Of a stretch of 64,000 nucleotides of DNA, positions 1 through 19,721 are shown one piece after another. Within the stretch, counting starts at the first letter, position 1. The number at the start of each line of letters is the position of its first letter. Source of the stretch: Pyramidobacter sp. YE332 (GTDB lineage Bacteria; Synergistota; Synergistia; Synergistales; Dethiosulfovibrionaceae); contig NZ_CP133038.1 in NCBI RefSeq assembly GCF_033060595.1, forward strand, positions 992,001-1,056,000, in the 5' to 3' direction. The notes beneath the pieces were generated by a model, which was not told the DNA's origin, searched no databases, and saw nothing but the letters and a program-made list of their open reading frames with translations. The translations under genes were made by a program, and so were the position numbers.

Positions 1-844
1 GCGTGGACGTGATGTCCTTTTCTTCCGTCAGGCTGATGACCTTCTGGCAGGAGACCCACTCGTCGGCCGGCGGCGGCGAGATCGTTTCCGGCAGCGGTTC
101 GGCCATGGCGGAGCGCGCCTGCCGGTCGGTGATCCTGCCGCGCTCGCGCAGCAGCGAAATGGCCCAGTTGCGCCGCTGCCGCGCCGCTTGGGGATGCAGG
201 TCGGGACGGTAGGCGGTCGGTCCCTTGATCATGACGGCCAGCAGCGACGCCTGCGCGATGGTCAGGTCGCGGGCCGAGCGACGGAACCAGGCCAGCGAGG
301 CGGCTTCGACGCCGCGCAGATTGCTGCCCAGCGGGACCACGTTCAGGTAGATCTGGAGGATCTCGTCTTTCGATTTGATCTTTTCCAGTTGAGTTGCCTG
401 GGCGAACTCGCGCAGCTTGGTTTTCAGATTGCGTTCGGCCGGCCAGCAGAGGCGGATCACCTGGCTGGTGATTGTCGAGGCGCCGGAGCGCACCTTCCCG
501 GCCAGCAGATTGTCCTTGGCGGCGCGCAAAACGCCCCGCCAGTCCACGCCGCCGTGCGACCAGAAACGACGGTCCTCCACTTCCACGGCGACGAGCGGCA
601 TCCAGCGCCCCATCTCAGAAAGAAGGACGGGGAGACAAAACTCCCCGTCCTCTGACATGGTCACGCTGAGCATCGTCCCCTTGCGGTCGCGGACGACCGT
701 GGAGCGGGGCCAGGACGAGAGGCGCGCCTCGATCGGCTCGAGCCGGCCGAGCCGGTTCCAATAACGCCAACCGGCTGCGGCGGCGAGAAACGCGCAGAGA
801 AGCGCCGCCCCTCCCATCCAAAGCGTGAGCTTATGAAATTTCAT
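1..844 (-). CDS. pbpC: Penicillin-binding protein 1C, N-terminal part (cut by window edge)
   Basis: Peptidoglycan glycosyltransferase of the class A PBP family; polymerises lipid II at the outer face of the inner membrane. The visible 281 residues start with a short basic tail and one membrane segment (about residues 7-26), then a GT51 domain with the catalytic-glutamate motif EDRRFWSHGGVDWRG and the motif GASTITSQV. The transpeptidase part lies beyond position 1, so whether it is intact cannot be judged. The start is 13 bases after the stop of the macroglobulin gene, implying one transcript. The PBP1C/alpha-2-macroglobulin pairing is well known in Gram-negative bacteria and is the main reason to prefer PBP1C over another class A PBP. 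Confidence 0.88.
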   Translation of the reverse strand, partial: MKFHKLTLWMGGAALLCAFLAAAAGWRYWNRLGRLEPIEARLSSWPRSTVVRDRKGTMLSVTMSEDGEFCLPVLLSEMGRWMPLVAVEVEDRRFWSHGGVDWRGVLRAAKDNLLAGKVRSGASTITSQVIRLCWPAERNLKTKLREFAQATQLEKIKSKDEILQIYLNVVPLGSNLRGVEAASLAWFRRSARDLTIAQASLLAVMIKGPTAYRPDLHPQAARQRRNWAISLLRERGRITDRQARSAMAEPLPETISPPPADEWVSCQKVISLTEEKDITST

Positions 845-6188: not shown

Positions 6189-7418
6189 TTAACACCAGAA
6201 ACGTTCCCCGTGGAACAGCTTCGGCCGGCGCGCGAATTCCGCCGGCAGGCTCGCGGTTGACCGCGCCGGGACGCGGAAGGACGACCGCACGGCCGGCGGC
6301 GTGGCCGGCGCCGACTTTTTGTTGATGAAGTACCAGGCGCCGCCGATAAGCGCCGCCGCCAGGAGCACGGCGATGGTGACGCGGAGCGCCGAGATCGGCG
6401 ACTTGCCGCCGACCCGTCCGGTCTGGCCGTTGACCATGAAGTTGTAGACCTTGCCGTTGTAGCGGAACGACGACAGCCACACCGGCAGCAGCAGATACTT
6501 GAACTTGAGGTCGTCGTAGCTGGTCTGTACGTTGACGTTGGCGACCGTGTCGGCGCGGCATTCGTAGCGGATCTTCTGCTTGACCTGGCGTTCGAGATGG
6601 TCGTGGATCTCTTCGCGTCCCTGTTCCCAGCCGTCGTTGAGGCCGACGGAGTAGCGTTCGGCGGCGTAGCCGGCCAGGTATCGGGGGTTATAAGCGACGT
6701 TGGCCTCGGTGTCGAAGGGCAGGATCTCGTTCAGGATCGAGGCGTCGTGGCGCGCCGTGGCGAGCACGGGATGATCGTTGACGAATTCGCTGTAATCGCC
6801 GGAAGTGTAGTACCAGTCGGTGACCGTGCGGGTTTTGCCGTCGGCCTCCCTGACCGTGCGGTAGATGCCGTAGCGCCCGTCGTACTCGGACTCGGTCTGC
6901 GTGTCGAAGGTCCAGTAAGGCAGATAGACGCCGTGGAAGGCGTCGGGACGCGCCTTCTGCTTGGCCAGCGACGGGCAGAACAGTTTGCCGGCGATCCAGC
7001 GCTTGAAGTTCGCGCCGGCGGTCTTCTTGTCGATCTTGAACGGGCAGACGCCGCCGGGGGCCATGGTGTCGTCGTCCTGCACTTCCATGACCTGGTTGGA
7101 ACCGCAGTAAGGGCATTCGTTGGCGACTTCGAGCGCGTCGTAGATCGTTTCCGCGCCGCAGGACTCGCAGAGAACCCTTTTCTTGGCGGCTCCCCAGTCG
7201 TGACTGGCGCGGTCTTCGGCGTCTTCGAAGTCGATCTCGCGGGCGGCCTCGCCGGCCGCGATCTCTTCGGCGTATTCGCAGTAGGGACATTTCATGCCGC
7301 CCGTGGCGGGGTCGAACTCCATGACGCCGCCGCACTGCGGGCATTTCTTGTCGGTCTCGTCCTTGGTTCGGACCCGTACAGGTTCCTGCTCATCCTGAAA
7401 GGCCGGTTTTTCTTCCAT
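6189..7418 (-). CDS. Zinc-ribbon, single-pass membrane protein of unknown function
   Basis: 409 aa. The N-terminal half has four CxxC knuckles (CPQCGG, CPYCEY, CESCGAE, CPYCGSN), i.e. two zinc ribbons. A mixed alpha/beta region follows, and one predicted membrane helix near the C-terminus (VTIAVLLAAALIGGAWYF). Proteins of this shape are usually annotated only as zinc-ribbon proteins and often sit beside SPFH/YdjI-type genes, as here. The start was placed at the second in-frame ATG because AAAGGAG lies 8 bases upstream; an upstream ATG seven codons earlier lacks such a site. It is 51 bases behind the SPFH gene with no terminator. The last codons overlap a degenerate parS-like palindrome (6202-6217). 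The function is unknown; a link to membrane-microdomain or envelope-stress proteins is inferred from context. Confidence 0.75.
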   Translation of the reverse strand: MEEKPAFQDEQEPVRVRTKDETDKKCPQCGGVMEFDPATGGMKCPYCEYAEEIAAGEAAREIDFEDAEDRASHDWGAAKKRVLCESCGAETIYDALEVANECPYCGSNQVMEVQDDDTMAPGGVCPFKIDKKTAGANFKRWIAGKLFCPSLAKQKARPDAFHGVYLPYWTFDTQTESEYDGRYGIYRTVREADGKTRTVTDWYYTSGDYSEFVNDHPVLATARHDASILNEILPFDTEANVAYNPRYLAGYAAERYSVGLNDGWEQGREEIHDHLERQVKQKIRYECRADTVANVNVQTSYDDLKFKYLLLPVWLSSFRYNGKVYNFMVNGQTGRVGGKSPISALRVTIAVLLAAALIGGAWYFINKKSAPATPPAVRSSFRVPARSTASLPAEFARRPKLFHGERFWC

Positions 7419-7469
7419 GGAATTTTCTCCTTTCGTCAAGCGCGATGCGGAAACTCTATGGGAAATCCC

Positions 7470-8825
7470 TTATTTGTTGATGTTGTCGTTCTCGTCGAAG
7501 GGATCGCCGCACTCGGGGCAGAACTTGGGCGGATGATGGGGATCCTTGGGCTCCCAGCCGCACTTGTCGCATCGGTAGAGCGGTTCGCCGGCGGGCTTTC
7601 TGGCGCCGCATTCGGGGCAGAACTTACCCTTGTTGACGTGGCCGCAGGTCGGGCAGGTCCAGCCTTCGGCCGAAGCCGGCGCGGGCTGAGGGGCGCCGCA
7701 CTCCGAGCAGAACTTGCCGCGATTGCCGTCGTGTCCGCACGCGCCGCACTTCCAGCCGGCGGGAACGGGAGCCGGCGCCGGCTTCGCGGCCTGCGGGGCG
7801 GAGGCGGCGTGCTGCTGCTGCGCGCCCATGGCGAACAGATTGGCTGCGTTCATGCCGCCGGCCTGAGAGGCCATGTTCATGCCCGCGAAGGCGAACATCG
7901 GCCCCGTCGCCGTGTTGGAGGCGGCGGCGCGCATGGCGTCGGCCTGCGCCTGGCCGAGATGGGCGGCCATCATGTTGGGATTGCGGAGCACGGCGCTGCG
8001 CTGCATTTCCTTGATCATCTTCTCGTCCTCTTCGGACGCCTTGACGGAGTTCACGCCGAAAGCCACGATCTCGATGCCGCGCAGGGCGCCCCACTGTTCG
8101 GAAAGGATGTCGTTCAGCGCCTTGGCCATTTCCATGGTATGGGCGGGCAGGGAGCTGTAACGGATGCCCTGTTCGGAAAGGCGGGCGAAGGCGGGCTGCA
8201 GCGCCGTCAGCAGCTCGGTCTTGAGCTGGCTGTCGATCTGGTCGCGCGTGTAGACCTCGTTCACGTTGCCGCAGACGTTGGTGTAGAACAGCATCGGGTT
8301 GGTGATGCGGTAGGAATATTCGCCGTTGCAGCGGATGGCGATGTCGATGTCGAGGCCGATGTTGCTGTCGACGACGCGGAACGGAACGGGGTTGGCCGTG
8401 CCGTAGCGGTTGCCCATGATCTCCTTGGTGTTGAAGTAGTAGACGCGCTGCTCCTTGGGCGCTTCGCCGCCGAAGGAAATGCGCTTGCCGATGGTCTTGA
8501 AGCTTTCCTTGAGGCCGTGCCCGAGCCCGCCGTAGAAGATGCTCGGCTCGCTGGACGTGTCGTAGACGAACTCGCCCGGTTCGGCGCAGAGCTCGACGAC
8601 TTTTCCCTGGTCGACGACGATCATGCACTGGCCGTCGGCCACGGAGATGATCGAGCCGTTGCTGATGATGTTGTCGCCGCCTTTGTTGTTGCCGCGCTTG
8701 CCCTTGCGTTTGTAGCCGCGTTCGACGAGCACGTCGCGTTCCATCGCGTCGCAGTAAAAGTACTCGCGCCACTGGTCGGAAAGCACGTCTCCCATGGCGC
8801 CGCCGATCGCTTTGAAAAGTCCCAT
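7470..8825 (-). CDS. SPFH/Band-7 domain protein with C-terminal zinc ribbons (YdjI-like)
   Basis: 451 aa. Residues of roughly 1-300 form an SPFH/Band-7 domain like that of the Bacillus YdjI/virion-core-protein-like family. An Ala/Met/Gly-rich linker follows, then three C-terminal zinc ribbons, visible as paired CxxC motifs (CGACGH..CSECGA, CPTCGH..CPECGA, CDKCGW..CPECGD). No signal peptide or membrane helix is evident, so membrane association would be peripheral. The chosen ATG has GAGGGG 8 bases upstream; a GTG three codons earlier is too close to that site. It is first in the operon with the zinc-ribbon membrane protein, macroglobulin and pbpC. YdjI-like proteins in Bacillus belong to an envelope-stress system with PspA; that parallel is suggestive only. 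Confidence 0.85.
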   Translation of the reverse strand: MGLFKAIGGAMGDVLSDQWREYFYCDAMERDVLVERGYKRKGKRGNNKGGDNIISNGSIISVADGQCMIVVDQGKVVELCAEPGEFVYDTSSEPSIFYGGLGHGLKESFKTIGKRISFGGEAPKEQRVYYFNTKEIMGNRYGTANPVPFRVVDSNIGLDIDIAIRCNGEYSYRITNPMLFYTNVCGNVNEVYTRDQIDSQLKTELLTALQPAFARLSEQGIRYSSLPAHTMEMAKALNDILSEQWGALRGIEIVAFGVNSVKASEEDEKMIKEMQRSAVLRNPNMMAAHLGQAQADAMRAAASNTATGPMFAFAGMNMASQAGGMNAANLFAMGAQQQHAASAPQAAKPAPAPVPAGWKCGACGHDGNRGKFCSECGAPQPAPASAEGWTCPTCGHVNKGKFCPECGARKPAGEPLYRCDKCGWEPKDPHHPPKFCPECGDPFDENDNINK

Positions 8826-9007
8826 TTTCAGCACCCCTCTCAGATTTCTTTCTCAAGTTTCCCCGAGAAATTATTCTTTATTAACATCATCGTAAGATTA
8901 ACATAAAAAGCCGTTTCATGCACGGGGTTTTTGTCGGTTTTCGAGGCTTTCCCGCTTTTGAAAAATGAAAAACGCGCGCGGAAAAAAGGCAGCCTGATCG
9001 ACGTTCT

Positions 9008-9058
9008 TGCCGCTATCATAAGCGCGCCGCCGCGAAAAGGCATCACCCGAAGGGGTGA
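9008..9058 (-). promoter_or_regulatory. Promoter A with 16-bp operator, upstream of the SPFH operon
   Basis: Read on the minus strand: inverted repeat TCACC-CCTTCG-GGTGA (9043-9058), 22 bases, then a -10 box TATGAT (9020-9015). The repeat centre falls near -42.5 and replaces the -35, the geometry of a class II activator site. Near-identical arrangements occur at 17.3 kb and 18.1 kb. The predicted leader to the SPFH start is about 180 nt. Confidence 0.6.
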
Positions 9059-9117
9059 AAACCGCGCCGCGTTCGTCCGCGGCGGCGCGGAAAGATTTTT
9101 TCGTCCCGCGCGGAACG

Positions 9118-9157
9118 AAAAAAAACGCCCCGCGAAACGTTTCGGCCTCGCGGGGCG
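9118..9157 (-). terminator. Rho-independent terminator of the exported-protein operon
   Basis: Minus strand: perfect 10-bp stem CGCCCCGCGA/TCGCGGGGCG (9157-9148 with 9135-9126), a 12-base loop and a run of eight T. It lies 14 bases after the stop of the 556-aa gene and separates that operon from promoter A. Confidence 0.9.
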
Positions 9158-9170
9158 GAAAGAACATTCC

Positions 9171-10841
9171 TTACTGGAGCGCGAACGGCAGTTTTTTGTA
9201 GATCACGACGACGCCGCCGGAAAAGCCGCGCGTCAGCTTTCCGTTTTCGAACTTGAGTTCGGCCTGGGCGAGCAAACTCTTGAGACTGAACGTGTAAACG
9301 CCGCTTTCGTTTGTCCACGCGCCGCAGTCGCGCCCGTCCGCGAAGACCGTGCCGTCGGAGCGGATCCAGATGGGACGGGCGTTGGCGCGGTAGTTGTCGC
9401 TGGCGATGCTCTTGGGCATTTCTTCGCCGTTTTTCGTCACGCCTGCGGGCTCCCAGCGGCCGATGAGCGGTTCGCTCTCGGCCGCCGCCGCTTCGGCCGC
9501 CAGCAGTTCGCTCATGAAAACGGACTTGAAGCGGCGCTCTTCGCCCTGGCGCGCGTAGATCACGCGCGCGCCGTCGGCGGCGAGGTTCTCGATGTGCGCG
9601 CCGCGCAGGACGAACTGATAGTTCTCGAACGTCATGACGAAGCGGTTGTTTTCGAGCTTCCACGAGCCGAACTTCTTGCCGTCGAAGAGCGTGCCGTCGG
9701 TGCGCACGGAAAGCGGCTGCAGCGGCGCGCGGGCCAGCCGGGCGGCGCGCTCGAGTTCGTCCCCCATGGCGTCTTTGCCGCCGGCGATCAGTTCCACCGG
9801 CGTCCACTCTCCGACGGCGGCGGCCAGCAGCTCGGGGTCGCTGGGGAACTCGCTGGGCAGCTTGCGGAAGACGAAGTGATAGCCGTCGGCGTCGCGGAAG
9901 TTGACGAGGCCGTTGTTCTCGACCCAGAGGCGGCCGCTGAAGTCGCCGAGCGTGTAGCCGCCCTTGCCGTCGGGCTTCCACGTCTCGTCGCGCGGCTCGA
10001 ATCGGTAGGCGCCGTCCGTGCCGAAGGTGACGGTGCGCAGGCGGCCGGCGGCGGCTTCTTCCATCTCGGCGCCGGTCAGCGTGCGTCCGTTCACGCGCAG
10101 CTCGGTGGGGACCCATGTGCCGGCCAGTTTGCCGACGGCGATCAGGCGCGTCACCGCGGCGGCGTCTTTCTGCTCCTGCGCCTGGCGGCGGATGGCGGCG
10201 AAGCGCGCGTGGTATCGTTTGGCGGGGCTGTCGGCAAAGGCAATGCTGTGCAGGATGGCCATGATCTCCACGTCGGGAAGGATGCCCTTGCGCAGCAGTT
10301 CGCCGGTTTGTTCGGGCTTCAGCGCCGTCTGCGCGTCGGGGCCGAGCAGCGGGCGCTCCAGAATGGAAATGTTCATGGCGTCGCGGAATTCGTTGCCGAC
10401 CGGTTCTTCCCTGCGGGGCCAGTCGGCCCACAGGATCATGTCGTACTGCGTGCCGGGGACGCGCTTGTCCTGATATTTCGACGGCGTTACGTAGAACGTG
10501 AAGGGAATGTCGTCGATCAGCGCGGACTGCAGCGTCGCGCCCGCTTTTTCCGCGGCGGCGGCGACCTTCTGCTGAAACTCTTCGGGCGAGTGGGAGTAGA
10601 GGATCTCCTGCGAGAAGCGCAGCGTCTTGGTGGTGATCCTGCCGGTCGGGGCCTTGAAGTCGAGCCAGCGGTCGGTGTCGAACGTGCCTTTCTTCCAGCC
10701 CTGCGGCAGCAGGAGCGTGGCGATCTTGCCCCGATATTCGCCGCCCGACTGGATCACTTCGGCCACGGTGACGGCGCTCCTCGCCGCGGCCGAACCTGCG
10801 GCGAGGAGCAGCGCCAGAACGAGGGCGCGCGGGATTTTCAT
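9171..10841 (-). CDS. Exported protein with three lipocalin-like repeats
   Basis: 556 aa, unrecognised as a named gene. A Sec signal peptide (cleavage near SAAARSA) is followed by a region of about 200 residues without recognisable motifs. Three repeats of about 110 residues then begin at about 237 (AGTWVPTELRVNGRTLTGAEM), 338 (VGEWTPVELIAGGKD) and 458 (IGRWEPAGVTKNGEEM). Each opens with G-x-W-x-P and later carries a charged turn, F.DG(.)..G.W and Y.F-type strands, which resembles the lipocalin-like beta-barrel proteins of anaerobes. Internal triplication of a small beta-barrel domain is an inference from this repeat pattern. It is third and last in a run of three exported-protein genes spaced by 16-23 bases, with a terminator straight after. 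Confidence 0.7.
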   Translation of the reverse strand: MKIPRALVLALLLAAGSAAARSAVTVAEVIQSGGEYRGKIATLLLPQGWKKGTFDTDRWLDFKAPTGRITTKTLRFSQEILYSHSPEEFQQKVAAAAEKAGATLQSALIDDIPFTFYVTPSKYQDKRVPGTQYDMILWADWPRREEPVGNEFRDAMNISILERPLLGPDAQTALKPEQTGELLRKGILPDVEIMAILHSIAFADSPAKRYHARFAAIRRQAQEQKDAAAVTRLIAVGKLAGTWVPTELRVNGRTLTGAEMEEAAAGRLRTVTFGTDGAYRFEPRDETWKPDGKGGYTLGDFSGRLWVENNGLVNFRDADGYHFVFRKLPSEFPSDPELLAAAVGEWTPVELIAGGKDAMGDELERAARLARAPLQPLSVRTDGTLFDGKKFGSWKLENNRFVMTFENYQFVLRGAHIENLAADGARVIYARQGEERRFKSVFMSELLAAEAAAAESEPLIGRWEPAGVTKNGEEMPKSIASDNYRANARPIWIRSDGTVFADGRDCGAWTNESGVYTFSLKSLLAQAELKFENGKLTRGFSGGVVVIYKKLPFALQ

Positions 10842-10857
10842 TTTTTGTGCCTCCCCT

Positions 10858-11973
10858 TTAATATTTCATCGTGTGCCAGCCTTGCGAGCCGCCGTAGGCG
10901 ACATCGAGGTGCACGACGGAGTCGTTCCAGATGCGGCGCAGCTCGGTCAGGCTTTTGCGCAGGCGGCGCGTGTAGACGGGACCGCCGCCGCTGGAAATGG
11001 AATCGCCGGTGTCGAAGGCGGTGGCGGCGACGTTCTTCCACGCGCGCAGGCTGCCGCCGATGGTGTCGCCGTCGTTCAGGGATTCGATGGTCGTCAGCGC
11101 TCCGTCGAGCAGATCGAACGCGTTGAGCAGGATCTTTTCGTCGGCGTCGACGATGGGCTGGATCTCGGCGTAACCGGGCAGTTTCAGCACGGCTTCTTTC
11201 GCCTGGCTGAACGAGGCGTGGGCTTTCTCCCATTCTTTCTTGAGCGCTTCGAACATGCTTTTCTGCTCGTTCAGTTTCGAGTCGCTGCAGGCGACGATCT
11301 GCGAGTCGAGGACGCGCATCTCGTTCTCGAAGTAGGGCTGGGCGCGCAGGACTTTCAGCGCGTATTCGTTCAGGCCGGCGTAGTTGAAGACGTCGACGAA
11401 ATCGACGTTCCAGGGATAAGGGCCGCTCGCTTTCACGCCCTTCAGATCGACGTTGTTCTTCAGCTTTTGGGCGGCTTCGACGAACTTGCGGTAGGCGGCG
11501 TCGTAGCCGTTCATGAGCTTTCTGTAAGCCGGCCCCATCTCTTCGAACCATTGGAAGGAAGTGTTCAGTTTCTTGGCGCGGATGACGGCCCGGTTGCCGG
11601 CGAGGATGTTGAGCATGCGCCCTAACGTGGTCCGGCAGAGGGAGGTATCGTTGTAGCGCTGGAAAGCGGCAGCTATCTCCCGGCAGCGCTGGATCTCCGC
11701 CGGCGTGCCGGTGAAATTCAGCGCTATCGAGAGCGTCGTCGGCGAATACATGAGGCTCACGTACTGTCTCAGATCGGCGTCGCGGTCGGGATCCCGAAAA
11801 GCGTCGCCCTTGACGAGCGCGGCGCGGGCGCTGAGTTCCTGCGCGATACAGCCTTTGCAGAAGGCAAGGTCGTTGGGCCTCTGCGCCTCGGACGGTTCCT
11901 GCGCGGCGGCGGGCAGCGCGGCGCTCAGGCAGAAGATCAGGACGGCGGTCAGTCTTTTTGCGGAAGGAAACAT
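10858..11973 (-). CDS. Exported helical protein of unknown function
   Basis: 371 aa, not recognised. A signal peptide (cleavage near AAA-QEP) precedes a mature part rich in Ala, Lys, Glu and Leu, consistent with a mainly alpha-helical domain. Five cysteines (CKGC early, then near 97 and 117, and one near 230) would allow disulfides in the periplasm. The central part (about 130-310) looks like long amphipathic helices, so a scaffold or adaptor role is possible, but no family is assigned. It is the middle gene of the three exported-protein operon (23 bases from the upstream gene, 16 from the downstream one), so probably works with its neighbours. Confidence 0.65.
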   Translation of the reverse strand: MFPSAKRLTAVLIFCLSAALPAAAQEPSEAQRPNDLAFCKGCIAQELSARAALVKGDAFRDPDRDADLRQYVSLMYSPTTLSIALNFTGTPAEIQRCREIAAAFQRYNDTSLCRTTLGRMLNILAGNRAVIRAKKLNTSFQWFEEMGPAYRKLMNGYDAAYRKFVEAAQKLKNNVDLKGVKASGPYPWNVDFVDVFNYAGLNEYALKVLRAQPYFENEMRVLDSQIVACSDSKLNEQKSMFEALKKEWEKAHASFSQAKEAVLKLPGYAEIQPIVDADEKILLNAFDLLDGALTTIESLNDGDTIGGSLRAWKNVAATAFDTGDSISSGGGPVYTRRLRKSLTELRRIWNDSVVHLDVAYGGSQGWHTMKY

Positions 11974-11996
11974 TTTTCTTCAGCTCCTCTCGGGGG

Positions 11997-13322
11997 TTAA
12001 AAGCGCGGCTGGTAGTCGTAAACGTACCAGCGCCCGCCGCCTTCGCGGCGCAGGCGGTGCGGATGCGGCGAACCGACGGCTTTGCCGTTTGCGTCCCAGG
12101 CGCGGGTCTCGACGACGGCTTCTTCGATCTTCGTGCCGCCGACTTTGTTCAGGGTTTCTTTCTGACCGGCGTCGAGGAAGAAGTTCTCCAGGTCGTTTTT
12201 GTCGTCGAAGCCTTTCAGCACGCTGATCTTCGCCTGGCCGAAGGTGACGTGCACGTACTCGCCGTGGAAACGCCCCTGATGCAGGTCCCAGTGGTAGGAA
12301 AGCAGTCCCTTGCCGGTGTCTTCCTTGTAGCAGTCGGGGTAGATGCACTCGCGGTAAAGGTCGTAGTTCTTTTCCTTGATGGCGGCGACGTAGATCTCCA
12401 TCAGCCGTTCGGGCGAGACGTCCGCTGGAACGGACGTGACGCTGTACCAGCTCTTTTTCCTCTCCGCGACGATGTCTTCGCCGGCGAACGCGCCGCCCGC
12501 CTCGCCGTCCGGCGTGTGATAGGCCATGACGTGCCCCGGGACGTACAGCGCCACGGGCGTGACCACCCAGCCGTACTGGAAGCCGCCGACTTTTTTCTCG
12601 CCGGCTTCGGGGATCTCGGCGGTGATGTCGGTGATCTTGCCGAGCACGGTCCAGCTCTTCGCCTCTTCGAGTTCGGTGTCCACCTGGCGGCGGAAGCGTT
12701 TGGCGGCCTCGTAAGGCCCAAGCCAGGCGCGGCTGCCGATGTCGACGAAGTAATAGCCGGCGGACGGCTTGCCGGCGAAAACGTACTCGCCCGTCGCGCC
12801 GTAGAACTGGTGCTGCGGGTACTGCACGTCGTCGAGCACGACGTATTTGCCTTCCAGGTCGCTGACGGCGGTCTGTTTGGAGTCGGGCGCGGGGAAAGGC
12901 TTGTCGATCAGCGTGTCCCGATATTCGGCGAGCTTCTCGTCCCACGCCTTTTTGCCCAGCGCGGCGATCTCGCGGCGCAGATTCTCCTCCGTGCGTAGGT
13001 AGGCGGTCATCTCGGGGGTGATCTGGATGTAGTCCCCCTTGCTCTTCATCAGCGCGCTCTTGGTGCGCTGGAACAGCTCTTCGACCTTGGGATCGTCGGG
13101 GTACTGGAGCTTGAGCGCCTGCACGCGGCTGAGCGCGTCCTGCTTGCCGCGCCAGACCGTCTTTTCGCCGCCGCGCTGGCGTTCCACCTCTTTCTCGAAC
13201 TCGCGCACGTAGTATTCGGCGTGTCCGATCAGATGCTCCTTGCTGATCGCGCTTGCGGGCGCGGCGTTCAGCGCTCCGGCGCAGACGGCGGCGGTGAAGA
13301 GCAGCAGCGATTTCCTTTTCAT
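11997..13322 (-). CDS. Exported protein of unknown function
   Basis: 441 aa, not recognised. A Sec signal peptide (cleavage near APASA-IS) is followed by a helical, charged region (residues about 30-150), then a beta-rich middle with many Tyr/Gly/Val (GYYFVDIGSRAWLGPYEAAKRF) and a C-terminal domain ending in RWYVYDYQPRF that recalls NTF2-like/DUF4440-type accessory domains, a weak resemblance only. It is the first gene of the three exported-protein operon. AAGGAGGCTTCACTGCGC places the ribosome site before the chosen ATG. The 252-base gap to the divergent response-regulator gene holds its promoter. Confidence 0.65.
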   Translation of the reverse strand: MKRKSLLLFTAAVCAGALNAAPASAISKEHLIGHAEYYVREFEKEVERQRGGEKTVWRGKQDALSRVQALKLQYPDDPKVEELFQRTKSALMKSKGDYIQITPEMTAYLRTEENLRREIAALGKKAWDEKLAEYRDTLIDKPFPAPDSKQTAVSDLEGKYVVLDDVQYPQHQFYGATGEYVFAGKPSAGYYFVDIGSRAWLGPYEAAKRFRRQVDTELEEAKSWTVLGKITDITAEIPEAGEKKVGGFQYGWVVTPVALYVPGHVMAYHTPDGEAGGAFAGEDIVAERKKSWYSVTSVPADVSPERLMEIYVAAIKEKNYDLYRECIYPDCYKEDTGKGLLSYHWDLHQGRFHGEYVHVTFGQAKISVLKGFDDKNDLENFFLDAGQKETLNKVGGTKIEEAVVETRAWDANGKAVGSPHPHRLRREGGGRWYVYDYQPRF

Positions 13323-13574
13323 GCGCAGTGAAGCCTCCTTAAATAGAATAAATGGATTGAACGATGCCGGTTTGCGATCTTCATAACTTATCGAAAAAAT
13401 ATGTTAGCACGAACGGATTGAAAAATCACCCTGCATAAATTTTTGAATCCTGATAAAATAACGCCGATGGAAGCAATCGAAATTTTTCGTCCGCGTTGTG
13501 CCGTGAAATGCAAAAAGCGTCGAAGCGCGCAACGCGGCGGAAAAAATCTCGAACGCCGGGCGGAGGCGAAGGAT
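13323..13574. promoter_or_regulatory. Divergent intergenic region between exported-protein operon and response regulator
   Basis: AT-rich relative to its surroundings. On the minus strand a single GGTGA half-site (13430-13426) lies 19 bases before TAACAT, so a degenerate version of the operator found at 9.0, 17.3 and 18.1 kb is possible but the second half (AATTT) does not match. On the plus strand GATAAAAT (13452-13459) is a plausible -10 for the regulator. No terminator is seen. Confidence 0.3.
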
Positions 13575-14186
13575 ATGGTCCGAATCATGATCGTCGAGGA
13601 TCAGACGATGGTGCGCGACGCGCTGAAAAACAGCCTGGACGGCGTCGAGGATTTCAACGTCATCGCCGCCATCGCCGACGCGGCGCTGGCGGAACTGTAC
13701 TGCGAGAGGACGTCTCCCGATCTGGTGCTGATGGACGTGTGCACCGAGAACGATTCCAGCGGGCTGGACGCGGCGGCGGCGATCAAAAAACGCTTCCCGC
13801 AGGTGCGCGTGGTGATGATGACGGGGCTGCCGGAGGTGACGTTCGTCGAACGGGCCCGCGAGGCGGGGGCCGACAGCTTCGTCTACAAGGATCTGGACGT
13901 GAACGGCCTGGCCGGCGTGATCCGCGACACCTGCGCGGGCAAAAGCGTCTATCCGGGACGACGCGAGGAAGTTCTCAACTTCGGCGAACTGACGCGGCGC
14001 GAGCGCGAGGTGCTGGTGCTGATCTGCGACGGGCTGTCGCGCCGGGAGATCGCCGAGCGGCTGAACATCACGGTCAACTCGGTGAAGACGCACTTTTCGA
14101 ACATCCTCTCGAAAACGGGCTACGAGAGCGTCGCCAAGCTGGCGATCTTCGCCGTCTCCAACGGTTTCATCAACACGAAAATATAG
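13575..14186 (+). CDS. LuxR/NarL-family response regulator
   Basis: 203 aa two-component response regulator. The receiver domain (1-120) has the acidic pocket E8-D9 and phospho-acceptor D54 (LVLMDV). The C-terminal LuxR-type helix-turn-helix (about 138-200) shows LTRREREVLVLICDG, SRREIAERL and TVNSVKTHFSNIL. The start was chosen at an ATG with GGAGG 8 bases upstream; the frame is open further upstream but without a ribosome site. It converges on a gene for a NarX-type histidine kinase, the natural partner. I propose that it binds the 16-bp inverted repeats upstream of three nearby promoters (near 9.05, 17.30 and 18.08 kb). That pairing is inferred from proximity and from the -41.5 geometry typical of this family. 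Confidence 0.88.
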   Translation: MVRIMIVEDQTMVRDALKNSLDGVEDFNVIAAIADAALAELYCERTSPDLVLMDVCTENDSSGLDAAAAIKKRFPQVRVVMMTGLPEVTFVERAREAGADSFVYKDLDVNGLAGVIRDTCAGKSVYPGRREEVLNFGELTRREREVLVLICDGLSRREIAERLNITVNSVKTHFSNILSKTGYESVAKLAIFAVSNGFINTKI

Positions 14187-14190
14187 GACG

Positions 14191-14222
14191 GAAGCTCCGG
14201 AACGGCCGGAGCTTCTTTTTTT
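14191..14222 (+). terminator. Terminator of the response-regulator gene
   Basis: Stem GAAGCTCCGG/CCGGAGCTTC with a 5-base loop followed by seven T. It overlaps the stop codon of the convergent kinase gene. Confidence 0.88.
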
Positions 14223-15642
14223 ATGCCTCGCGCTCTTCCGGCGGCAGTTTTACGGTCACGGTGAAGCGCGGCGAAGTCGCGATCTCCAGCGTGCCCCCCG
14301 CTTCGGCGGCGAGGCGGCGCATGCCGGCCAGCCCCTGGTTTTCTTTGAGCGGCCGGTCGCCGTCAAAGGGCGCGCCGTCGTTGGCGACGCGCATCGCCAG
14401 CCCCGCGCCGGTGCGCTCGATCCGCGCCTCGACGCGGGACGCGCCCGCGTGTTTGACAGCGTTGGTCGACGCTTCGCGCAGGATCTTGATCAGTACCGCG
14501 GCCTGCCGCTCGTCGCGGGGAAGCCGGCCTTCCACGCTCAGTTCGACGCCGATGAAGCCGAACGACCGCTGCAGGTCGGCCAGCAGCCGCGCGGCGGGCG
14601 CCGTGACGTCGGCGCGCAGGTCGTCGATCAGGCCGGAGAGGAGCGGCAGGAAGCGCTCGAGGTCGTGGAAATTTTCGCCGCCGCGCTGCAGGTACTGCTG
14701 CATCAGGTAGATGCGGTGTCCCGCCATGTCGTGGATGCGGCTCTGCAGACGCGCCAGCTCCTGCTCGCGTTTGACGGCGGCAAGCGCTGCTCCGGCTTCG
14801 CGCAGCTCTTCGGCGCGCGCGGCCAGTTCTTCGTGAAGCTTTTGCAGCTCGCGCGTGAGCCGGTCGGTCTCGGTCACGCAGGCGGCGAAGATCGCGCTGA
14901 ACGCGCGTCCCTCCACGTCGAGCAGGCGGCGCGAAAATTCCCACGACTGGCCGTCGGCGCGGAACAGCAGCGCATCCGCGAGCGCGATCCGCTCGACGCC
15001 CTCGCGGAGCGCGCCGCCGTTCAGCGCCTGCCAGAACGCCTCGCCGTCGCGCAGCGGCCGGGCCGTGAGCGTTTCGGCCAGAAGCAGCATCTGCCGGTTG
15101 GCGAGCACGGGGCGGCCCGTGGGATCGCTGAACAGAACGCCGTCCGGCAGCCGGTCGAGCGCTTCCTTGATGGAGTGGCGCGCGACGGAACGGCGGCGTT
15201 CGCGCCGCGCGCGGGCGTCGCACCAGGCGGCCCGCAGCGCGAAGAACGGCAGCCCGAGGACGAACAGCGGCGCGAAAAAGCGCGCGCGGTCGAAGCAGGG
15301 CAGCGCGGCGAACGCGAAAAACGCGCCCGGCAAAAACATCGACCGGCGCGAGACGACGCCGAAAACGACAAGCGGGACGGCGCTCAGCCACCGCCACGGC
15401 GTCAGCGGGAAAACGGCCTCTGTCCCCGCGTAGCCGCGGCAGTGGACGGAGAGAAGCAGCGCAAAAGCGCCCAACAAATACAAACCGGTCAAGAATTCTC
15501 CGAAGCGCTCGGCGCGCAGGCCGGGGCGTTTCCGCTGCAAGGCCAGCTCCAGCGACAGAAAAACTTCGAACAGCAGCGCCAGAGCGGTCAGCCCCATCAG
15601 GGCGATACGGAAAAAGGCGTCGAACGCCAGCAGCTCGTTCAT
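14221..15642 (-). CDS. NarX/LiaS-type membrane histidine kinase
   Basis: 473 aa. The N-terminal 140 residues hold about five hydrophobic segments (7TM-type input domain rather than a periplasmic loop). A PAS-like region (about 160-270, with PLANRQMLLLAE) and a short coiled coil follow. The HisKA_3-like motif RIHDMAGHRIYLMQQ has candidate phospho-acceptor H304. The HATPase domain is intact: N-box REASTNAVKHAGASR, G1 ANDGAPFDG, G2 NQGLAGMRRL. GGAGG lies ahead of the ATG, which overlaps the stop of the upstream membrane protein by four bases (ATGA), so the two are translated as a pair. The convergent LuxR-type regulator is the likely phosphorylation target. Confidence 0.87.
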   Translation of the reverse strand: MNELLAFDAFFRIALMGLTALALLFEVFLSLELALQRKRPGLRAERFGEFLTGLYLLGAFALLLSVHCRGYAGTEAVFPLTPWRWLSAVPLVVFGVVSRRSMFLPGAFFAFAALPCFDRARFFAPLFVLGLPFFALRAAWCDARARRERRRSVARHSIKEALDRLPDGVLFSDPTGRPVLANRQMLLLAETLTARPLRDGEAFWQALNGGALREGVERIALADALLFRADGQSWEFSRRLLDVEGRAFSAIFAACVTETDRLTRELQKLHEELAARAEELREAGAALAAVKREQELARLQSRIHDMAGHRIYLMQQYLQRGGENFHDLERFLPLLSGLIDDLRADVTAPAARLLADLQRSFGFIGVELSVEGRLPRDERQAAVLIKILREASTNAVKHAGASRVEARIERTGAGLAMRVANDGAPFDGDRPLKENQGLAGMRRLAAEAGGTLEIATSPRFTVTVKLPPEEREA

Positions 15643-17219
15643 GGGCGCGCCTCCTTTCCGTCGGCGAGAAGCGGCAAGCGGCAGGTCGCGTACAGGCTGC
15701 CCTCGTCGCGTTCGAGACGATACGCGCCGCCCAGACGGCGCAGCGTTTCCCGCAGCGGCGGCGGTAAAAGCGCCGCTTCGTCGGGCGGCTGCGCGCTTTC
15801 GATCACGAGACGCAGTTCCAATTCGTCGCCGGCGCGCCGCAGCCGCATCAGCAGCGACGCGGGCGCGGCCGTCAGGCAGCATTCCAGCGCTTCCTCGAAC
15901 AGATCGTAGACGAACATGCCTGTCCGCGCCGGCACGGCGCCGCTTTCGGCGCAGAACGGGGCGCAGTCCACGCCGGCCGGCGCGGCGCAGCGGGCCGATT
16001 CCATGGCGGCCTGCATGATCTCGGCCAGCGGCAGCCGGTTCGACTGTTTGCTTTTCAGGAACAGATGACTCTTGCGCTTTACGGCGCAGATCAGCACGCC
16101 CAGACGGGCGAGGGCGCGGCGGACCGTTTCGCGATCTCCCGCGGCGGGGCGTTCGGGAATGGCCGCGAGAAGCCGGCGCGCCGCTTCGATCTTGTCCTGC
16201 ATGCGTCGTTCGACTTCGGCGCAGAGGCGGTTCTGCCAGCGCAGTTCCAGCAGGCGGCCGCGGATCTGATTGCGCTGCGCCAGCAGGCGGTTGCCGCGTT
16301 CGCGTTCGCGCGTCAGTTCGCGCAGTTTTTCCTGAAGCGCCAGGAGTTCGCTCACGTCCTCCTCCCACAGGACCGAGCCGCCGCGCAGCGGCCACAAACG
16401 GCGCTGCGTCCCCGGCGGCGCGTCCGCCCCCGGACGGGGCGGGGCGAGGCGGGTGCGGTAGACGGGCGTTCCCCGTTCGTCCTCGATCCACATCCGCGCC
16501 GGGGCGAGCGCGAACAGTTCCTCGTAGCGGCTGTTGCAGGGAAGCGCGCCGCTGCACAGGCAGCTTTCCCAGAAGAGGAAGACCGCGACGGCCGTGGCGA
16601 AAATAAAGCCGCCGCCCGGCAGCCAGGCGGGCCGTTTGACGAAATACAGCCAGACGTAGAGCGCGAAAGCGACGAGGATCGCGATCGGCGCGGCGGCGCG
16701 GCGGGCGCGGGCCGGCGAGGCGGCGTTTTTGATCAGCCCGGCGGCGAAGCACAGCGTCGAGAGCGCGATCCAGCCGACGAGGATTTTTTTCGCCCCCGCG
16801 GCCAGCGGCAGGACCGCCGCCAGCCACAGCGCCAGCGAAACCGTCAGATGGAGCGTCAGCGCCCGGTCCAGCGGCGGCGCGTCGAGCGGCTGCGAGGAAA
16901 CGCGCAGGATCAGCAGATCGAGCCACGGCAGCAGCGCGAAGATCAGCCAGCTGACAACGTCCATGCCGCGCAGCGCCGCCGTCTGCATGAGGCGGTATGC
17001 CTGCCACCGGTCGCGGGCCATGGGCAGATTGAACGCCGCCAAAAACTGCAGCGCCCGCAGCGCGATCCAGAAAAACAGCAGCAGCGCCGTTCCCTGCATG
17101 CCGCGGCGCAGCGCCGGATGAACGACGCGGCGCTGCAGCGACCAGCTCCATCCGCACAGGACCGCGAGAAAAAGCAGATGCCCCAGCCCCTGCCCGACGC
17201 CGCCTTCCAGTGCCGTCAT
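15639..17219 (-). CDS. Membrane sensor protein resembling a degenerate histidine kinase
   Basis: 526 aa. Seven to eight hydrophobic segments fill about residues 1-230. A PAS-like piece (near LAPARMWIEDERGTPVYRTR) and a coiled coil (about 285-350, LQEKLRELTRERERGNRLL) lead to a C-terminal part shaped like a HisKA/HATPase module. I cannot find a clear phospho-acceptor histidine, an N-box asparagine (the position reads LFEEALECCLTAAP) or glycine boxes, so it is probably catalytically inactive. It overlaps the active kinase gene by four bases and has the operator-bearing promoter B 40 bases upstream. I infer a co-sensor that forms a complex with, or gates, the downstream kinase; similar kinase-like co-sensors are known in other systems but this one is not recognised. 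Confidence 0.7.
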   Translation of the reverse strand: MTALEGGVGQGLGHLLFLAVLCGWSWSLQRRVVHPALRRGMQGTALLLFFWIALRALQFLAAFNLPMARDRWQAYRLMQTAALRGMDVVSWLIFALLPWLDLLILRVSSQPLDAPPLDRALTLHLTVSLALWLAAVLPLAAGAKKILVGWIALSTLCFAAGLIKNAASPARARRAAAPIAILVAFALYVWLYFVKRPAWLPGGGFIFATAVAVFLFWESCLCSGALPCNSRYEELFALAPARMWIEDERGTPVYRTRLAPPRPGADAPPGTQRRLWPLRGGSVLWEEDVSELLALQEKLRELTRERERGNRLLAQRNQIRGRLLELRWQNRLCAEVERRMQDKIEAARRLLAAIPERPAAGDRETVRRALARLGVLICAVKRKSHLFLKSKQSNRLPLAEIMQAAMESARCAAPAGVDCAPFCAESGAVPARTGMFVYDLFEEALECCLTAAPASLLMRLRRAGDELELRLVIESAQPPDEAALLPPPLRETLRRLGGAYRLERDEGSLYATCRLPLLADGKEARP

Positions 17220-17256
17220 GGTCGTCTCACCTCCGTGCGGCGAAATTTCTTTTTCT

Positions 17257-17306
17257 GGAGCTTATCCTATCATGACGCGGCGGAAAAGCATCACCCGAAG
17301 AGGTGA
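17257..17306 (-). promoter_or_regulatory. Promoter B with 16-bp operator, upstream of the sensor pair
   Basis: Minus strand: inverted repeat TCACC-TCTTCG-GGTGA (17306-17291), 21 bases, then TAGGAT (17269-17264). The repeat centre falls at -41.5 from the inferred start near 17257, leaving a 38-nt leader. The repeat and 20 flanking bases closely match promoter A, suggesting autoregulation of the sensor genes. Confidence 0.62.
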
Positions 17307-17372
17307 AGTTTTGAATTTTTTCAAAGGCAGGCGGCGCGAAATAAATACGGTCAATCATCATGCAGGATAAAA

Positions 17373-17388
17373 TGTTCCATGTAGAACG
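17373..17388. other. parS-like palindrome, degenerate
   Basis: TGTTCCATGTAGAACG matches the parS-type 16-mer TGTTCCACGTGGAACA at 13 of 16 positions and is intergenic. It is weaker than the copies at 31.5, 49.9 and 59.8 kb. Confidence 0.4.
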
Positions 17389-17431
17389 TTTTTCGCGAGC
17401 CCTTGCGGCGTCTTGTGGGGATTTGCATGTT

Positions 17432-17470
17432 AAAAAGCCGATAACCGACCGGTGGTTGGCTATCGGCTTT
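17432..17470 (-). terminator. Terminator of the 143-aa exported protein gene
   Basis: Minus strand stem AAAGCCGATA/TATCGGCTTT, extended by inner CC/GG and ACC/GGT pairs, followed by five T. It lies 40 bases after the stop. Confidence 0.8.
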
Positions 17471-17512
17471 CGTTGCCGTTGGCATATGCGAAGAGAAGCG
17501 CGCGACGGCTGT

Positions 17513-17944
17513 TTATTTTTTGAACTCGATCGAATTGAACACGTCGGTGGCCGCGTCGCTCCCGTGATCGCCGACGATGGTGATGCAGCCGTACGCGCCG
17601 CCGCCGAGGTCGAAAACTTGGGCGTACAGGGGCTGGCCGTTGGCCGCGCCGGTGTATTCCCAGGCTTCGCCTTCGCCCTCCATCCTGACGAGGTCCTGAG
17701 AGCCGTGCGCTTCGGCCATGCGGGATGCGGCGTCCTGCAACGGCGTGCCCGCCGCGGGCATTTTCGTCACCGTGAAGACGATCGCTTTGTCGGGAGACGC
17801 AAGCGCGGCGGAGTTTTCGCCGTCCGCCTGGAGCGTCCAGCCTGCGGACGGCGTCTCGGCGGTGAAAAAACCGGCGTCGACTGGGGCGGCGGACGCCGTC
17901 GCGGCCATCGCCAGCGTCGCCGCGAGCGCGAGAATTTTTTTCAT
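17513..17944 (-). CDS. Small exported protein of unknown function
   Basis: 143 aa with a clear Sec signal peptide (cleavage near SAAP-VD). The mature 120 residues are acidic and beta-rich (GWTLQADGENSAALASPD, IVFTVTKMP, GCITIVGDHGSDAATDVF), a profile seen in small periplasmic PsbP/DUF-type ligand-binding proteins, but no family is assigned. GGAGGAAT precedes the ATG. It is transcribed alone; the leader carries a 20-bp perfect palindrome. On the minus strand TATGAT (18026-18021) is a plausible -10. The operator C repeat would be centred about -63.5 from that start, so the gene might share control with the divergent 509-aa exported protein. Confidence 0.72.
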   Translation of the reverse strand: MKKILALAATLAMAATASAAPVDAGFFTAETPSAGWTLQADGENSAALASPDKAIVFTVTKMPAAGTPLQDAASRMAEAHGSQDLVRMEGEGEAWEYTGAANGQPLYAQVFDLGGGAYGCITIVGDHGSDAATDVFNSIEFKK

Positions 17945-17973
17945 GGAAGATTCCTCCTCAAAAAGTCACGACG

Positions 17974-17993
17974 CTCCGGCCGCGCGGCCGGAG
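17974..17993. repeat. 20-bp perfect GC palindrome in a leader
   Basis: CTCCGGCCGCGCGGCCGGAG is fully self-complementary and lies in the inferred 5' leader of the 143-aa exported protein. It is followed on the plus strand by TTTT. Possible hairpin or protein site; role unknown. Confidence 0.4.
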
Positions 17994-18069
17994 TTTTCGG
18001 ATTCCCGATCTACGGCTGTAATCATATCACGCCGGCGCGTTTCGCGAAAAGACGCAGGAGGCGAAAAAA

Positions 18070-18119
18070 TCGCCTTTTCAGGTGAGGCCGCGGACCTTTT
18101 TTCTGATAAGATAAGGGAA
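18070..18119 (+). promoter_or_regulatory. Promoter C with 16-bp operator, upstream of the 509-aa exported protein
   Basis: Plus strand: imperfect inverted repeat TCGCC-TTTTCA-GGTGA (18070-18085), exactly 21 bases, then TAAGAT (18107-18112). This has the same spacing and the same YYTTCR spacer orientation as promoters A and B. Inferred transcription start near 18119, about 73 nt before the ATG. Confidence 0.52.
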
Positions 18120-18191: not shown

Positions 18192-19721
18192 ATGAAGGCA
18201 AGGAAACTGATCGTGGGAGTTCTCGCGGCGCTGGTATCCGTTTCGCCGGCTTTCGCCGCGCCGGCGAAAACGCGGGAACTCTACGCGGCGGATCCCGGCG
18301 AAGGCAGGGTGTACAAGCTGGAACCGGGACGGAAGACCGAACTCGGCTTCGAACTTCACGAGGTCAAATCGGGCGGCGAAACGCGGTATTACTGGGCGGC
18401 GCTCGATCCGAACGCGACGGACGAGGCGCTTCCCGAGTCCGGCGTGGCGTTTTTTGCGCCGGACGGGCGCCAGAGCGCGCTGCTGCCCTTGCAGGGCGGA
18501 TTCGACGGCGCCTGCGTGGCCGCTTCGCCTGACGCGGCCAGATTCGTGCTTTCGGTGCCCGACGGCGAGGCCGGGCGCGTCAACCGCGTCTACGATTTTG
18601 CGCAGATGAAGCCGCTGACCTCGGTGCGCGGTTCCATCGTCGACTGGGGCGGCCCCGTCTGGGTGGACGAACGCCGCTTCGTCTACACGTCGTTCGACGA
18701 CGCGAAGATGAAGAAGCCCGGCCTTGAAGGCGCGGAAGCCGGTTATCTCTCCGTGCGCCTTTTCGACGCGGACAGCCGCCGTTCGCAGACGCTCAAAGCG
18801 GCCACGCCGACGGACGAGTACGCGATGATGGGTTATTGCGACGGCTTCGTCACCATGGCGCATTATTACGTGGACGACGCGTCGCAGTGGGCGGCCGGCG
18901 GCCCCGAGGAAAACGGGGCGCTGCGCTCGGAGCGCACCTATTGCTGGCTGCCGGGCTGGAAGCCCGGCGAGTGGTGGCGGACGCCGAAAGCGGTGTTCAG
19001 CGTCGATGCCGAAAACGGCCGCGTGTTTGCCGGCGAGGGGCGCGAGCGCAGGGAATACGCCGTCGAGCTTCGCCAGGGACAGTTCCCGGACGCTTTCTCG
19101 CCGTTCGACGACGAAGCGGTGAGGGTGGACTATTACTGGTTCGTCGCCGGCGGCGAAGGGGATCCGGCCGGCGAGATCCCCGTGCTCTACGTCTTCACGC
19201 TCTCGCAGGACAACGCCGAGGCCGACGATCCGGCGCTGACGGCGGCTTTTTTCGTGGGCGAGCCGGAGAGGATCCGCGACGTCGGCATCTCGCCCAAGGG
19301 CGAGCGCCTGATCGTGGCCGTCGGCGAAGAAGGGTCGCAGGTCCGCGACCTCGAACTGTACCGACTGAGCTATTACGAGCACGAGGCGTTTTGCCACCTG
19401 GCGACGCTGCGCCCTGCCTACGGGGCGTTTTACTGGTTCGATCCCTGGCGCGCGGTCTATTCGGCGCTGAACCTCGAGGCCGACCTGCAGAGCGGGCGCG
19501 AGCCGGGCTACGCGCTGGACGTGCGCGTGTACGACAGCGCCGTGGGCGAGGATTATCGGATCACGGAGAGTTCGACGCTCGACAGCTATCAGGCCGTGGG
19601 GCTGAGCGAAGACGGGGACATCGAGATGGAGCAGATCTCCGTTCCCGATCTGGCGGACTGGAAAGACCCGGGCAGGGAACGGCGCACGCGCCTGAAGGGG
19701 CGGATGCCCGCCGCCGGCTAA
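18192..19721 (+). CDS. Exported protein of unknown function, possibly beta-propeller
   Basis: 509 aa. A Sec signal peptide (cleavage near AFA-APA) is followed by a long beta-rich region with repeated segments of the kind VAASPDAARFVLSV, GISPKGERLIVAV and VGLSEDGDIEME, spaced irregularly. This pattern is seen in WD40/TolB-like beta-propellers, and I infer a propeller fold on that basis only. No catalytic motif or cysteine pairing stands out. The ATG follows AAAGGCGTGAGATCG, a modest ribosome site. It is monocistronic, with a strong terminator after it. Its promoter carries the shared operator, so it is a candidate member of the two-component regulon. Confidence 0.7.
   Translation: MKARKLIVGVLAALVSVSPAFAAPAKTRELYAADPGEGRVYKLEPGRKTELGFELHEVKSGGETRYYWAALDPNATDEALPESGVAFFAPDGRQSALLPLQGGFDGACVAASPDAARFVLSVPDGEAGRVNRVYDFAQMKPLTSVRGSIVDWGGPVWVDERRFVYTSFDDAKMKKPGLEGAEAGYLSVRLFDADSRRSQTLKAATPTDEYAMMGYCDGFVTMAHYYVDDASQWAAGGPEENGALRSERTYCWLPGWKPGEWWRTPKAVFSVDAENGRVFAGEGRERREYAVELRQGQFPDAFSPFDDEAVRVDYYWFVAGGEGDPAGEIPVLYVFTLSQDNAEADDPALTAAFFVGEPERIRDVGISPKGERLIVAVGEEGSQVRDLELYRLSYYEHEAFCHLATLRPAYGAFYWFDPWRAVYSALNLEADLQSGREPGYALDVRVYDSAVGEDYRITESSTLDSYQAVGLSEDGDIEMEQISVPDLADWKDPGRERRTRLKGRMPAAG

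Follow-up and report, generated by a model that had tools for sequence, protein, structure and literature searches.

The window analysed here, a stretch of 64,000 nucleotides (nt) of Pyramidobacter sp. YE332 (contig NZ_CP133038.1, positions 992,001 to 1,056,000), carries the genes of a two-component system: a response regulator of the NarL/LuxR type and two sensors, HK1 and HK2. In the same region lie an operon for an SPFH protein, a zinc-ribbon protein, an alpha-2-macroglobulin and a PBP1C-like protein, and the gene for an exported protein of 509 amino acids (aa). A sequence-only reading of the window had placed a shared 16-base-pair (bp) operator at the promoters of the operon, of the sensor pair and of the exported protein, and had proposed the regulator as its binder. 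All three sites (S1 to S3) were found where that reading had put them, each with its -10 box at the claimed distance (Table 1), and comparative evidence points to the regulator as the protein that reads them.

Table 1. Two-component genes, operator sites and target genes; positions are those of the window, or of contig C1 where so marked.
Feature	Position	Strand	Remarks
Response regulator, NarL/LuxR type	13575..14186	+	receiver and GerE domains; proposed binder; recognition helix VNSVKTH, residues 167-173
HK2, catalytic histidine kinase	14221..15642	-	overlaps HK1 by 4 bases
HK1, membrane sensor with kinase-like architecture	15639..17219	-	without conserved phospho-accepting histidine
Operator S1, TCACCCCTTCGGGTGA	9043..9058	-	precedes SPFH/zinc-ribbon/macroglobulin/PBP1C operon
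-10 box TATGAT	9015..9020	-	22 nt from S1
Operator S2, TCACCTCTTCGGGTGA	17291..17306	-	precedes sensor pair
-10 box TAGGAT	17264..17269	-	21 nt from S2
Operator S3, TCGCCTTTTCAGGTGA	18070..18085	+	precedes gene for 509-aa exported protein
-10 box TAAGAT	18107..18112	+	21 nt from S3
SPFH protein	7470..8834	-	Pfam Band_7_1 and double zinc ribbon; likely start 8825
Zinc-ribbon protein	6189..7439	-	membrane segment by eye; likely start near 7418
Bacterial alpha-2-macroglobulin	858..6128	-	
PBP1C-like protein, N-terminal part	2..844	-	transglycosylase domain; runs off window
509-aa exported protein	18192..19721	+	without Pfam family
S4	C1:1111817		515-aa frame for exported protein, then DUF4428 protein
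S5	C1:1960683		short frame, then frame resembling 10858-11973 by eye (L119:6684-8175)
S6	C1:2572170		269-aa exported protein, vWA-like by eye, then CreA
S7	C1:561281		exported protein and two CsgG/LpoB-like proteins
S8	C1:976890		511-aa exported protein
S9	C1:1058249		membrane protein by eye
S10	C1:20533, two more copies		DUF4428 and zinc ribbon

Aligned in the orientation of their -10 boxes, the sites form a 16-bp inverted repeat, TCACCC-N4-GGGTGA. The TTCR centre that had been read into the motif reflects just three examples and was rejected: the four middle bases vary across sites and lie outside the signal. The sites and their spacing stand. The window contains three exact matches to the pattern, where its base composition would predict about 0.002; with up to two mismatches there are six, against a shuffled mean of 1.87, and 2 of 100 shuffles reach that number. 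In the 2.8-Mb genome we found six exact matches against about 0.1 expected (window composition) and none for a reversed control, which shows that the motif does not occur at random frequency. All six, located without regard to a -10 box, are followed in one orientation by TANNNT at 21 or 22 nt.

The regulon had been presented as local. This was not borne out, because seven further promoters outside the window's three (S4 to S10) have the site, so that about ten promoters carry it genome-wide. S4 to S6 belong to the six exact matches; the full set of S4 to S10 comes from relaxed searches of the same genome in which the -10 spacing was demanded, followed by examination of the reading frames behind the matches (reversed controls gave 0 and 1 matches). 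A few weaker matches located elsewhere were left uncounted, and the S10 copies at 2745641 and 2771599 were counted together with that at 20533 as a single site. Viewed as two inverted 7-base elements 2 bp apart (7-2-7 geometry), the ten sites match in 5 to 7 of the 8 possible pairs. Taking the -10 box as -12 to -7, the centre of the repeat falls at -41.5 for a spacing of 21 nt and at -42.5 for 22 nt, as had been claimed. The promoters also lack a -35 element of their own, again in line with the earlier reading: the best match to TTGACA 15-19 nt from the -10 box is 2-4 of 6 positions at the ten sites, the random mean being 2.6. Such a layout, with the operator near -41.5 and no functional -35 element, would be that of a class II promoter. 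As a separate observation, TG directly follows the repeat (9059, 17290, 18086 and others) at 8 of the 10 sites and at many sites in other phyla; it is perhaps a remnant of a -35 element.

Conservation of the repeats in related genomes, proposed at the outset as a check, was found at many sites in the four other Pyramidobacter genomes (G001 to G004). A search of 61 genomes from the order found the gapped motif in all five of the genus and in 1 of the 56 others, with a single match there. Regulator matches of 73-100% identity are confined to the same five genomes, the next best reaching 36%. The best named match is Pyramidobacter sp. C12-8, whose regulator is 100% identical. G003 keeps all ten sites; G001 keeps eight, with a ninth ahead of the S6 orthologue, and S1 is kept in both with its spacing unchanged. 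G002 and G004 are more distant members of the genus (regulator 73-76%), and in both a site precedes the SPFH orthologue (78-79% identical). Sites also stand ahead of the orthologues of the 509-aa gene (51%) and the S4 gene (51%) in G004, and of the S6 (71%), S7 (57%) and S8 (51%) orthologues in G002. They are kept although the upstream flanks have visibly diverged. A G004 site was assigned to S2 by its position opposite the orthologues of 17513-17944 and of the 509-aa gene, as its short contig ends before the sensor gene. Some further matches in G002 and G004 precede genes outside the query set or no obvious gene.

The same geometry recurs beside related regulators in other phyla, Bacillota among them. 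A regulator-based scan yielded 80 loci, of which 46 (L125-L170) were classed as close and 33 as distant; since the latter were found partly through a shared peptide, EIAERLNI, they do not sample regulators at random. A branch with 100/100 support divides the 69 rows of the regulator tree into 43 (the window regulator and 42 others) and 26, and all 20 site-bearing rows, two of them identical, fall on the 43-row side. Twelve of the 80 fetched loci do not appear in the tree because their matched stretch contained stops or they were too short (L137, L138, L146, L164, L168, L183, L190, L196, L199, L200, L201 and L203); L183, placed in the distant set, could be a close relative that is broken. A site was scored as ACCC-N4-GGGT with one mismatch allowed, a -10 box at 21 or 22 nt, and no more than 3 kb between site and regulator. 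By this rule 17 of the 46 close loci have a site (30 shuffles: mean 4.2, largest 8), although the one in L158 looks like chance, against 1 of the 33 distant loci (shuffles 2.4).

Some close loci without an ACCC/GGGT site have repeats of the same geometry in other letters. With letters left free beyond CC/GG, the spacing at close loci peaks at 21 (5 repeats) and 22 nt (5), other spacings having two at most. With letters unrestricted, the 250 bp behind 60 regulator genes contain 7 repeats with a spacing of 21 nt and 17 with one of 22 nt, against 50 over the remaining 35 spacings (range 8 to 44), none of which exceeds 4; the loci include near relatives, so that these counts are not all independent. 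The 33 distant loci gave none at 21 or 22 nt. Because of these peaks the repeat appears to hold its position while its letters change. When 16 regulator-bearing genomes, chosen because a site was already known in each, were searched whole, 14 of 18 matches (13 places) were the known site, and a reversed control gave 3. Re-examination of 21 loci with a looser core produced one convincing repeat behind the regulator, in L152, with its -10 box at 23 nt; the site of L145 was found by eye. In the coriobacterial loci L127, L129 and L132 the linked genes are present, and neither the strict nor the looser-core search found a site.

The changing letters follow the regulator. Half-site distance among 20 site-bearing regulators was compared with each 7-residue window of the protein, corrected for divergence of the receiver domain; the set includes L145 and L152, while L138, L146, L164, L148 (almost identical to L147) and the Oscillospiraceae loci lie outside it. 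Of 195 windows, the one that fits best is the recognition helix, residues 167-173 (partial r 0.63, 0 of 5000 permutations). It keeps this rank when the hand-found L145 is removed, when the set is limited to ACCC/CCCC types, and when close relatives are thinned (0 of 2000 each). Helices with NSVKTH or NTVK[TS]H pair with TCACC (window, L126, L142, L153), DCVKKH with GTACCC, DTVKAH with TTACCC or CTACCC, and ETVKSQ with TCCCCC. The geometry beside relatives in other phyla, the linkage of target genes described below and this co-variation together support the pairing first proposed from the window, and the regulator at 13575-14186 is thus very probably the binder of the operator. The fixed distance to a -10-like box could also suggest that the conserved block is the -35/-10 pair of an alternative sigma factor and no operator at all. 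This is hardly credible for a block that is an inverted repeat kept while its letters drift, stands ahead of a -10 box of the ordinary TATAAT type, and has letters that track the recognition helix of a regulator.

Several observations weigh against the assignment of the operator to this regulator as an activator. No clear site lies ahead of the regulator's own gene, and 29 of the 46 close loci have no site by the ACCC/GGGT rule. A strict search of 150 Oscillospiraceae genomes, a weak test, found the site in 2 of the 15 that have a related regulator and in 2 of the 135 that lack one; the two regulator-positive genomes are those with regulators at least 85% identical to the query, and of the two regulator-negative sites one precedes an exported protein and the other looks like chance. 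A weight matrix built on genus-only 16-mers scored 14 or more twice within about 1.5 kb of close regulators and never near distant ones; it found few sites because the outer bases differ in other phyla, and tests based on geometry were therefore used. The spacing at S7 to S10 adds no evidence, since the searches demanded it. The genome also encodes a paralogue of the regulator (L241:3281-3946, C1 about 71280-71945), 35% identical to it, and a 16-bp repeat at -41.5 would fit many dimeric activators. It could thus be proposed that another dimeric regulator, of the Crp/Fnr type or this second response regulator (C1:71325), reads the repeat and that the window regulator is a mere neighbour. We consider this improbable: the operator letters in other phyla follow the recognition helix of the window regulator, the geometry is missing at loci with distant regulators, and the helix of the paralogue differs (PSSIKGC). 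The paralogue adjoins a gene for an exported protein that by eye resembles the one at 17513-17944.

The direction of control is read from the operator position and the poor -35 region. The repeat overlaps the -35 region, and the regulator might bind there and repress. There would be little to repress, as none of the ten promoters has a -35 element above chance, and the spacing between repeat and -10 box is fixed across phyla, as expected for contact with the polymerase; repression seems to us quite improbable, and class II activation is the most likely mode of action of the regulator.

The two-component proteins agree in part with the earlier description of a regulator and a sensor pair. The regulator has Response_reg (2.4e-18) and GerE (7.8e-14) domains, which place it in the NarL/FixJ (LuxR-type) group, and the nearest solved protein by sequence is VraR (E 2.6e-30). 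HK2 is a catalytic kinase, with an HATPase_c match and with H340, D341, N430 and G473 (P0002 numbering) invariant over 13 sequences. HK1 differs. The protein itself has no Pfam match, its homologue in L131 matching HisKA_7TM, and no conserved histidine was found in its hairpin region among 30 sequences: the best column has histidine in 14 of 30 and glutamate in the window protein, and H385 of the window protein is asparagine in 28 of 30. Its structural model (predicted local distance difference test (pLDDT) 83.7, predicted template modelling score 0.50) is helical in the N-terminal part and alpha/beta in the C-terminal part, and also has a small beta domain and a long helical hairpin. HK1 could thus be a sensor without phosphate chemistry and the partner of HK2.

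From the sites, their geometry, their conservation and the co-variation, which the sequence shows, we infer that the regulator is phosphorylated, binds the operator and activates rather than represses, as well as the kind of signal. The regulator would be phosphorylated through HK2, acting together with HK1, and its dimer would bind the repeat at -41.5 or -42.5, where it would replace the -35 element and, in the manner of a class II activator, recruit RNA polymerase. The regulon would comprise about ten promoters, those of the SPFH/zinc-ribbon/macroglobulin/PBP1C operon, of the sensors, and of genes for DUF4428 zinc-ribbon, CsgG/LpoB-like and several exported proteins, and the presence of the sensors' own promoter would create positive feedback. 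It would most likely serve membrane or envelope maintenance under stress. Judged on sequence comparison, this model as a whole, from the operator of the regulator through class II activation driven by HK2 and HK1 to an envelope regulon of some ten promoters, is in our opinion highly probable.

Most operator-bearing promoters precede exported or membrane-linked genes. Between 8834 and the start of the window, the operon behind S1 contains the SPFH, zinc-ribbon, macroglobulin and PBP1C genes, and it may go on beyond the window; its SPFH protein gives the sole Band_7_1 match in the genome (2.8e-19). Exported proteins, PBP1C, the macroglobulin and LpoB-like proteins under one operator make envelope or membrane stress the likeliest theme, which we favour with moderate confidence. 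Seen from the opposite strand, S3 stands 43 nt upstream of a TATGAT box (18021-18026, minus strand) that precedes the gene for a 143-aa exported protein at 17513-17944. This distance is two helical turns beyond the usual spacing, and S3 might serve that gene too, from about -63.5.

Genes under the operator in Pyramidobacter are in part positionally linked to the same two-component genes elsewhere. Pyramidobacter proteins were compared by tBLASTn with 45 close loci outside the genus and the 33 distant loci. Relatives of HK2 occur in 42 close loci and 1 distant locus, and those of HK1 in 36 and none. Among the targets, SPFH and DUF4428 relatives were each detected in 11 close loci (for SPFH, eight at 51-64% over at least 420 residues and three that are short or weak) and those of the S4 exported protein in 3, all with none in the distant set; the zinc ribbon at 6189..7439 matched 5 close loci and 1 distant. 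The other operator-linked proteins compared, including the macroglobulin, the PBP1C fragment, the 509-aa protein, the proteins behind S6-S9 and the small S10 zinc ribbon, were unmatched in both sets. The earlier description of the targets as a periplasmic defence set is thus too narrow: its SPFH protein is shared with related loci, together with DUF4428 and zinc-ribbon genes, and its macroglobulin and PBP1C fragment had no match in the 45 loci. In addition, 161 open reading frames (ORFs) of the window of at least 120 aa were compared with the same loci, shadow frames of the same genes being set aside. Only three others match several close loci: ORF 33800 (6 close, 8 distant), ORF 55630 (15 and 18) and ORF 39578 (4 and 1). 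One locus, L143 of Ruminococcaceae RUG14158, unites HK1, HK2, the regulator, the operator, a receiver-like gene, SPFH, DUF4428, the S4 protein and the zinc ribbon.

The gene that comes first after the operator in Bacillota often encodes a 127-aa protein without a Pfam family (L136:5638-6021, L143:5039-5422, L224, L238 and others), with relatives in 19 of the 45 loci. Its AlphaFold model (pLDDT 88) has a receiver fold and its best Foldseek matches are receiver domains, while the usual active-site residues look missing by eye. The protein is possibly a feedback decoy and may close a feedback loop.

VraSR and LiaSR are envelope-stress systems. The present system resembles them in a regulator nearest to VraR, in the HDxxG histidine box of HK2 and in its envelope-linked targets, but has two sensors, one of them without a conserved phospho-accepting histidine, and HK2 (P0002) does not score as a LiaS-type kinase (25.4 bits against a cut-off of 450). 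The half-site consensus of NarL is TACYYMT, and the letters here, TCACCCG or TTACCCA, do not follow it, their ACCC standing one base off. With NarL the regulator shares the REC and GerE domains and inverted 7-base elements 2 bp apart. NarL of Escherichia coli is described with 7-2-7 operators, one NarL-dependent promoter site lies just upstream of the -35 element, and the site of an engineered promoter is centred at -44.5 (PMC7419079). Here, in contrast, the centre is at -41.5 or -42.5 at the six sites whose detection made no use of the -10 box, and the targets are envelope genes, not those of nitrate respiration.

YdjG of Bacillus subtilis has a zinc ribbon, and the Band_7_1 family also has a match in that species, presumably YdjI. 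In B. subtilis the SPFH protein YdjI, together with YdjG and YdjH, is required for membrane recruitment of PspA, and sigma-W is in control (PMC8581546). The two cases are alike in an SPFH protein that adjoins a membrane protein, membrane stress being the known setting in B. subtilis, where the genes are joined to pspA under sigma-W; here, within the window, they are joined to the macroglobulin and PBP1C under a two-component system. By gene neighbourhood, the zinc-ribbon protein at 6189..7439 is a candidate YdjG-like protein. A CodY-like regulon of Synergistetes, described for the same genus, also has a palindromic operator, but its arms are AT-rich (ATTTTY-N14-AAAAAT) and both regulator and target set are others (PMC9318921). 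We found no description of the present two-component system or its operator in the open-licence papers searched.

We give roughly even weight to the idea that these genes represent an unnamed envelope-stress signalling system of Synergistota, Bacillota and possibly Coriobacteriia, the last by gene content and with no site found, which would combine a catalytic kinase with a histidine-less kinase-like sensor and keep its operator in place while the letters drift with the helix. An operator, a regulator and a list of targets are now proposed for a conserved two-component system. In the broader idea of an unnamed system, SPFH-based membrane repair would have one more route in addition to Psp, Lia and sigma-W. 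The model for Pyramidobacter would place SPFH and zinc-ribbon proteins, the macroglobulin and PBP1C under a single signal in a gut anaerobe that is Gram-negative. As the half-site classes match helix sequences, the loci also form a natural data set on how a regulator and its operator change together at a fixed promoter geometry.

Some minor observations concern the target loci. The macroglobulin at 858-6128 seems by eye to have no CxEQ thioester motif, like the second bacterial type. Behind S5 in G001 and G003 (L069, L074) lies a 440-aa relative of the window gene at 11997-13322, 62-63% identical. The S10 region occurs three times near the contig ends, each time with an array resembling clustered regularly interspaced short palindromic repeats, at C1:15000-26000 (L114), C1:2740000-2750000 (L121) and C1:2766000-2777081 (L122). 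One copy has many broken frames, and the tripling could reflect either a recent duplication or an assembly artefact.

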